From the NCBI GenBank assembly GCA_020073485.1, contig JAIQFB010000022.1, positions 1 through 64,000 of the forward strand: DNA of 64,000 bases, given 5' to 3'. Below are positions 29,645 to 29,791 of this stretch, one piece after another. The position numbers and the translations under genes are program-made. Source of the DNA: Terriglobia bacterium. Its GTDB lineage: Bacteria; Acidobacteriota; Terriglobia; Acidiferrales; UBA7541. Under the pieces are notes generated by a model. That model saw only the letters and a list, made by a program, of their open reading frames with translations, did not search any database and was not told where the DNA came from. Position 1 is the first letter of the stretch; each line of letters opens with the position of its first letter.

Positions 29645-29663
29645 GGTAAACCTGGGGTAAACC
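29645..29663 (-). repeat. Tandem GGTTTACC repeat 53 nt downstream of tRNA-Lys
   Basis: Read in the tRNA direction, GGTTTACC occurs twice with the 3-base spacer CCA (period 11 bp). It starts exactly 53 bases after the CCA end of tRNA-Lys. A near-identical arrangement lies 53 bases after tRNA-Arg at 59358-59376. The layout resembles recombinase arm or core sites of tRNA-integrating elements. Confidence 0.6.
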
Positions 29664-29716
29664 AAAGCCAACTCGGCTCCCTCGCAACTGAAAAAACATC
29701 GTTTTATAAGGGAATT

Positions 29717-29791
29717 TGGTGAACCGGGTAGGACTCGAACCTACAACCCGCTGATTAAGAGTCAGCTGCTCTACCATTGAGCTACCGGTCC
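29717..29791 (-). tRNA. tRNA-Lys (CTT anticodon)
   Basis: The minus strand folds as a 75-base cloverleaf including encoded CCA. The acceptor GGACCGG pairs with CCGGTTC (one G-U), the D arm is GCTC/GAGC, the anticodon loop CTCTTAA gives CTT, and the T arm is GTAGG-TTCGAGT-CCTAC. Confidence 0.96.

Follow-up and report, generated by a model that had tools for sequence, protein, structure and literature searches.

Tandem repeats one helical turn apart behind two tRNA genes in a Terriglobia genome: probable arm-type sites of decayed integrated elements

Two tRNA genes in the 64,000-nucleotide stretch of Terriglobia bacterium DNA analyzed here (the window) are each followed by a pair of short direct repeats. 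Very probably, these repeats are P′-arm integrase-binding sites belonging to the attL of two integrated elements, one in tRNA-Lys(CTT) and the other in tRNA-Arg(CCG). A sequence-only reading had already proposed them as possible arm sites of tyrosine-recombinase elements that target several tRNA genes. The layout that it proposed recurs in relatives, but the window sites themselves are remnants and not demonstrable elements. Integrase binding to the repeats is predicted from what is known of lambda-type integrases and from the studies of KplE1, cluster K mycobacteriophages, and Oenococcus prophages cited below. Sites of this kind are already known; the value of the present case lies in the diversity of arm motifs and in the tandem repeat as a fossil trace of an integration event.

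The geometry of the two sites is as first described: both pairs start after exactly 53 bases from the CCA end, and both consist of 8-bp copies with a period of 11, running in the direction of the tRNA. The arrangement is GGTTTACC-CCA-GGTTTACC behind tRNA-Lys(CTT) (29645–29663, minus strand) and GGTTTTAC-CCT-GGTTTTAC behind tRNA-Arg(CCG) (59358–59376, plus strand). ARAGORN also places a tRNA-Leu at 32573–32659 on the plus strand, and the sequence downstream of it is free of any such repeat, again as claimed. The features of the window are as follows.

29717–29791, minus strand: tRNA-Lys(CTT), found by ARAGORN and Rfam; its 3′ end presumably supplies the core, the part of attL that derives from attB
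29664–29716, minus strand: 53-nt spacer from CCA to the first Lys-site repeat; TTCCCT at 29709–29714; resembles the G020 spacer
29656–29663, minus strand: first arm-type copy of GGTTTACC, predicted P′1
29645–29652, minus strand: second arm-type copy of GGTTTACC, predicted P′2, period 11
28845–29588, minus strand: DUF3800-like ORF, 247 aa, the first gene past the Lys repeats; Pfam PF12686, E = 0.0021, below the cut-off
28157–28762, minus strand: ORF of 201 aa with no family match; missing at the site in the relatives fetched
59228–59304, plus strand: tRNA-Arg(CCG), found by ARAGORN and Rfam; its 3′ end is the presumed core
59305–59357, plus strand: 53-nt spacer of the Arg site; TTCCCT at 59307–59312
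59358–59365, plus strand: first predicted arm-type copy of GGTTTTAC
59369–59376, plus strand: second predicted arm-type copy of GGTTTTAC, period 11
59409–59416, plus strand: lone extra GGTTTACC, possibly an additional arm-type site
59305–64000, no strand assigned: left part of a stretch of ~8.7 kb (to ~67980 of the contig) that is missing from the relative G002

The repeats are specific to these two places. A relaxed pattern for the consensus GGTTTWMCNNNGGTTTWMC matches the 5,048,047-bp genome exactly twice, at the two window sites, each at +53 of a tRNA, and the reversed control pattern has 0 matches in the same genome. Random genome-wide occurrence, named beforehand as a possible refutation, is not what is seen in this genome. 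With 2 mismatches allowed, shuffles of the window give a mean of 0.13 matches each. Across 89 family genomes, the consensus has five matches: the two window sites, two in G020 (record QHYN01, an Acidobacteria gp2 metagenome genome), both belonging to att sites, and one in G028, without a tRNA or integrase nearby. Neither a scan of 396 genomes of the phylum nor a tRNA-anchored viral scan added any tRNA with the exact motif next to it. One contig match to the pattern (L025) was set aside as chance, there being no tRNA at that place.

The two spacers had also been said to share a TTCCCT..TAAA.CG block. The block is present at both sites, and TTCCCT inside the first 14 nt after the tRNA is confined to tRNA-Lys(CTT) and tRNA-Arg(CCG) among the 46 tRNAs of the genome. 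The similarity of the Lys and Arg spacers taken alone, however, is weak (z 3.1), and certain unrelated tRNA flanks score at least as high. A clear similarity (z 5.1, 0/3000 shuffles) links the Lys spacer to that of the GGTTTACC element in G020. From these comparisons we infer a common ancestry of the two window elements, which is well supported for the Lys site with G020 and less firmly so for the Arg site.

Both window tRNAs are complete with CCA, and the sequence past them differs from that in relatives. In G002, 93 bp separate tRNA-Arg from the syntenic homologue of contig positions 67984–68880; neither the tandem repeat nor the following insert is there, making this an empty site in a relative. 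Metabolic-looking genes fill much of the Arg insert, so that the location of its true right border is uncertain. The first ~0.9 kb past the Arg repeats (59420–60280) has no intact gene and only broken reading frames, perhaps the remains of an element gene. At the tRNA-Lys flank, relatives carry other sequence, with no clean empty site among those compared. The stretch special to this genome is only ~2 kb long there, holding the DUF3800-like ORF and the ORF of no known family; beyond it lie core genes that are conserved in G003. Neither ORF obtains a clear identity from Pfam, PADLOC, or PHROGs. None of the five genus relatives fetched has a homologue of the DUF3800-like ORF at this place, and the ORF is possibly leftover cargo.

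The window was said to have no visible integrase gene, and this holds for the entire 161.7-kb contig, which has no match to the tyrosine-recombinase domain (PF00589). Frames on the repeat side, examined for a leftover integrase C-terminus, are all short. Neither tRNA-Lys nor tRNA-Arg has a second copy of its 3′ end at a far border on the window contig, and searches for the far att end of either element by BLAST, by exact words, and by a joint score of tRNA match and arm pair gave nothing convincingly above control. For Arg, the highest joint score was 27 (control, 24), at +21 kb, past genes syntenic with G002. A second Arg candidate at +16.1 kb (the 12-nt CATTTTCCCTCG at 75442), also past G002-syntenic genes and without the arm motif, was rejected. 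Since both window sites lack a far end as well as an integrase, we read them as decayed attL remnants.

Complete elements of this layout are found in relatives. In G003, the closest relative searched, the orthologous tRNA-Lys(CTT) contains a 13.8-kb element with a 47-bp direct repeat that extends from the anticodon loop to CCACT, and the 3′ end of its integrase gene is toward the tRNA. The tandem motif reads TGTGCCCAATTTTGTGCC at the tRNA end and TGTGCCCCATTTTGTGCC, in the same orientation, ~130 nt inside the far end. This element (L138–L139; G003:C176, about 30258–44040) also has a large helicase-like gene and a methyltransferase-like gene, which we read as type III restriction-modification, and a SocA/Panacea-domain gene. 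In G020, tRNA-Arg(TCG) on contig C179 is followed, after 56 nt, by GGTTTACC-CGG-GGTTTACC. Contig C168 of the same genome has three period-11 copies of GGTTTACC type, the outermost being GATTTACC, where a frameshifted integrase gene begins; the N-terminal piece of this gene matches PF13356 (Arm-DNA-bind_3, E 3.5e-9), the other piece matches PF00589, and ~150 nt further along, the 3′ part of tRNA-Arg(TCG) is repeated almost perfectly. The two contigs appear to be the two ends of one GGTTTACC-type element. Homologues of the G020 integrase in G003 and G034 have tandem repeats (GTTGGTAC twice, TGGTTTAA twice) at the gene start, followed by a tRNA 3′ end. Since this arm family has its integrase at the opposite end of the element from the tRNA, the absence of an integrase gene next to the window tRNAs is what one would expect. 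In a Desulfobacteraceae locus (L023), the integrase ends in two copies of GGTTTACC, 49 nt from tRNA-His, and a viral contig (L202) likewise has a GGTTTACC pair where its integrase gene ends, adjoining tRNA sequence; both support the main reading. Looking for a nearby integrase and for a second copy of the tRNA 3′ end had been proposed as checks. Repeats do occur at integrase genes facing tRNA 3′ ends in relatives, and second copies are present at tRNA-Lys of G003, tRNA-Arg(TCG) of G020, and tRNA-Phe of the genome under study, but neither was found at the two window sites.

We propose that the sites worked as follows. Strand exchange inside the 3′ part of the tRNA gene would join the chromosomal tRNA to element DNA, and the first ~50 nt would act as a bendable spacer, with the DNA presumably bending there. 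The two integrase sites, which are separated by one helical turn and so share a face of the DNA, would hold two protomers side by side that bridge to the core. As seen in G020, elements of the GGTTTACC arm family would have their integrase gene at attR, the far end. The window sites would then be decayed remnants that are probably unable to move, barring an integrase that works in trans.

Action in trans deserves consideration. In 8 of the 11 repeat-bearing tRNA sites of this genome, and in 7 of 9 in relatives, the downstream stretch searched (1.1–3 kb overall, 1.5–3 kb in this genome) contains no integrase. At the tRNA-Phe gene (L247; G000:C4:275264 to about 276760) lies an element of 1.5 kb that has no integrase but one YopX-family gene. 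Its att sites are complete, with CGTACCAAAAACGTACC at either end, as CGTACC tandem pairs, and a 24-nt copy of the tRNA 3′ end with one mismatch. Behind tRNA-Arg(TCT) (L252; G000:C43), GTAGCCCAA occurs twice at +63 in an 8.8-kb stretch that has no integrase inside and whose border is marked by 45 nt repeated, with mismatches, from the 3′ part of the tRNA; an integrase lies directly upstream of this tRNA instead. Behind tRNA-Val(GAC) (L251; G000:C45), TCCGTACCG is found at +58, +70, and +2361, and the motif recurs 7.2 kb downstream, where an integrase gene ends beside a degenerate tRNA copy, an arrangement that looks like tandem accretion. All of this would fit a model of acidobacterial genomes populated by very small integrase-less elements with complete tandem arm sites, which would spread via the integrases of others, as a MITE-like layer for tyrosine integrases. 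The window sites would then be the working ends of such elements, moved in trans or in cis by neighboring or incoming integrases, and their repeats would be kept by selection. However, no attR is detectable at either window site, and this genome has no close homologue of the N-terminal domain of the G020 integrase. We therefore regard this model as unlikely, and retain the reading of decayed attL remnants for the window sites.

It is also useful to ask which protein the repeats would bind. Excisionases (recombination directionality factors) bind direct repeats one helix turn apart at att sites (PMC7498355), and the window repeats would still be part of an att site if they were bound by an excisionase and not by integrase. 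Against this, the same tandem motif lies on both sides of the core in G003, in G020, and in the tRNA-Phe and tRNA-Arg(TCT) elements of this genome, as for integrase arm sites; in G003, its presence at both ends of the element points to integrase rather than excisionase sites. In addition, the motif differs among integrase lineages, the G020 integrase that adjoins the array has an Arm-DNA-binding domain, and the repeats of Oenococcus phages have been proposed as arm sites that co-vary with the integrase N-terminus (PMC8074189). Binding by an excisionase is thus quite improbable, and binding by integrase is the reading that we carry forward.

Repeats of this type are a general feature of tRNA flanks in this genome. 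Downstream sequence was gathered for all 46 tRNA genes by search and region retrieval. Of these genes, 11 are followed by an exact tandem repeat 7 nt or more in length, with a period of 9–13 and starting at +39 to +76, and one further repeat is found at +103 (tRNA-Pro). The motifs vary: GTTGCAC behind tRNA-His and tRNA-Thr, ACGTACC behind tRNA-Phe, GGGTTACG behind tRNA-Ser(CGA), TGTTCCAA behind tRNA-Gly, CCGTACCG behind tRNA-Val(GAC), and others. Under stricter settings (at least 8 nt, period 9–12, +30 to +100), 9 of the 46 tRNAs have a repeat, against 0.45 expected from Markov resampling or 0.68 from random window segments; shifted or upstream control windows give 1–2 of 46. Among orthologues of tRNA-Lys(CTT) in the family, the flank varies by genome and often has another tandem repeat at +47 to +70, while tRNA-Arg(CCG) is followed by two copies of GGCTTGAAA at +33 in G003 and by none in G002.

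Such repeats are also tied to integrase genes. None of the 16 integrase-domain matches in the genome is on the window contig, and the integrase that faces tRNA-Thr(CGT) has a tandem repeat inside its own last codons. A tandem repeat of at least 8 nt is present between 90 and 20 nt before the stop codon in 14 of 30 related family integrases, as opposed to 0–1 in upstream control segments of the same genes, and each integrase lineage has its own repeat motif. In 13 integrase-repeat-tRNA triples, the gap from CCA to repeat is 34–88 nt, with 7 of the 13 at 54–60. Thus, examining all tRNA flanks for a repeat at +53, as had been suggested, reveals enrichment behind tRNAs but no rule of exactly +53. 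Since +53 is close to the common spacing of the triples, and GGTTTACC-type motifs range over 49–56, the exact equality of the two window distances is partly coincidental. Short repeats can arise randomly and equal distances by coincidence, but the uniqueness in the genome, the enrichment behind tRNAs, the linkage to integrases, and the different repeats at orthologous tRNA-Lys genes of relatives make it extremely improbable that these are chance repeats, or that they serve tRNA processing or termination and have nothing to do with integration.

It is instructive to compare the window sites with known systems. They resemble the B-O-P′ layout of lambda-type attL, in which tandem P′ arm sites adjoin int, for example that of KplE1, integrated at the tRNA gene argW (PMC2951348): a core in the tRNA 3′ end is followed by a spacer and then, on the element side, by arm-type sites, here predicted. 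They differ in that the window lacks an integrase gene and in the predicted arm motif, GGTTTACC/GGTTTTAC. The attP of Oenococcus oeni prophages has direct repeats that end at the integrase stop codon (PMC8074189); repeats of ~10 bp beside the core, at the int stop codon, are likewise found in many of the acidobacterial elements here. Sequence, host, and target are different, however, and the GGTTTACC element of G020 has the integrase start codon, not the stop, at the array. In cluster K mycobacteriophages, 11-bp arm-type repeats flank a tmRNA or tRNA core (PMC3203893). Both there and here, repeat pairs of ~11 bp lie on both sides of a tRNA or tmRNA core and related integrases differ in arm motif, but those are intact phages whereas the window sites are one-sided remnants. 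Finally, CIMEs are cis-mobilizable elements that have kept attL and attR and lost their integration genes (PMC5704250). The tRNA-Phe (1.5 kb) and tRNA-Arg(TCT) (8.8 kb) elements, with integrase-less DNA between att sites, fit this definition; the window sites, at neither of which attR was found, do not.

More broadly, a tandem repeat one helical turn in period at ~+35 to +90 behind a tRNA may serve as an inexpensive sign of earlier integration, one that persists after the integrase itself is lost. Such a mark would reveal decayed or integrase-less islands that integrase-based tools overlook. It would also predict arm-site sequences for many uncharacterized integrases, including sites within the last codons of the gene. 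Across this family of soil bacteria, the pattern offers a handy fossil mark of past insertions.

In three loci (L010, L014, and L015, at tRNA-Val(TAC), tRNA-Arg(TCT), and tRNA-His), integrase genes end 14–75 nt upstream of the tRNA 5′ end and point into it. In the attP of viral contig L202, the integrase ends in two copies of GGTTTACC, followed by the 5′ half of tRNA-Lys(CTT) and then by further GTTTACC/AGTTTACC sites. Together, these arrangements suggest elements that replace the 5′ halves of tRNA genes.
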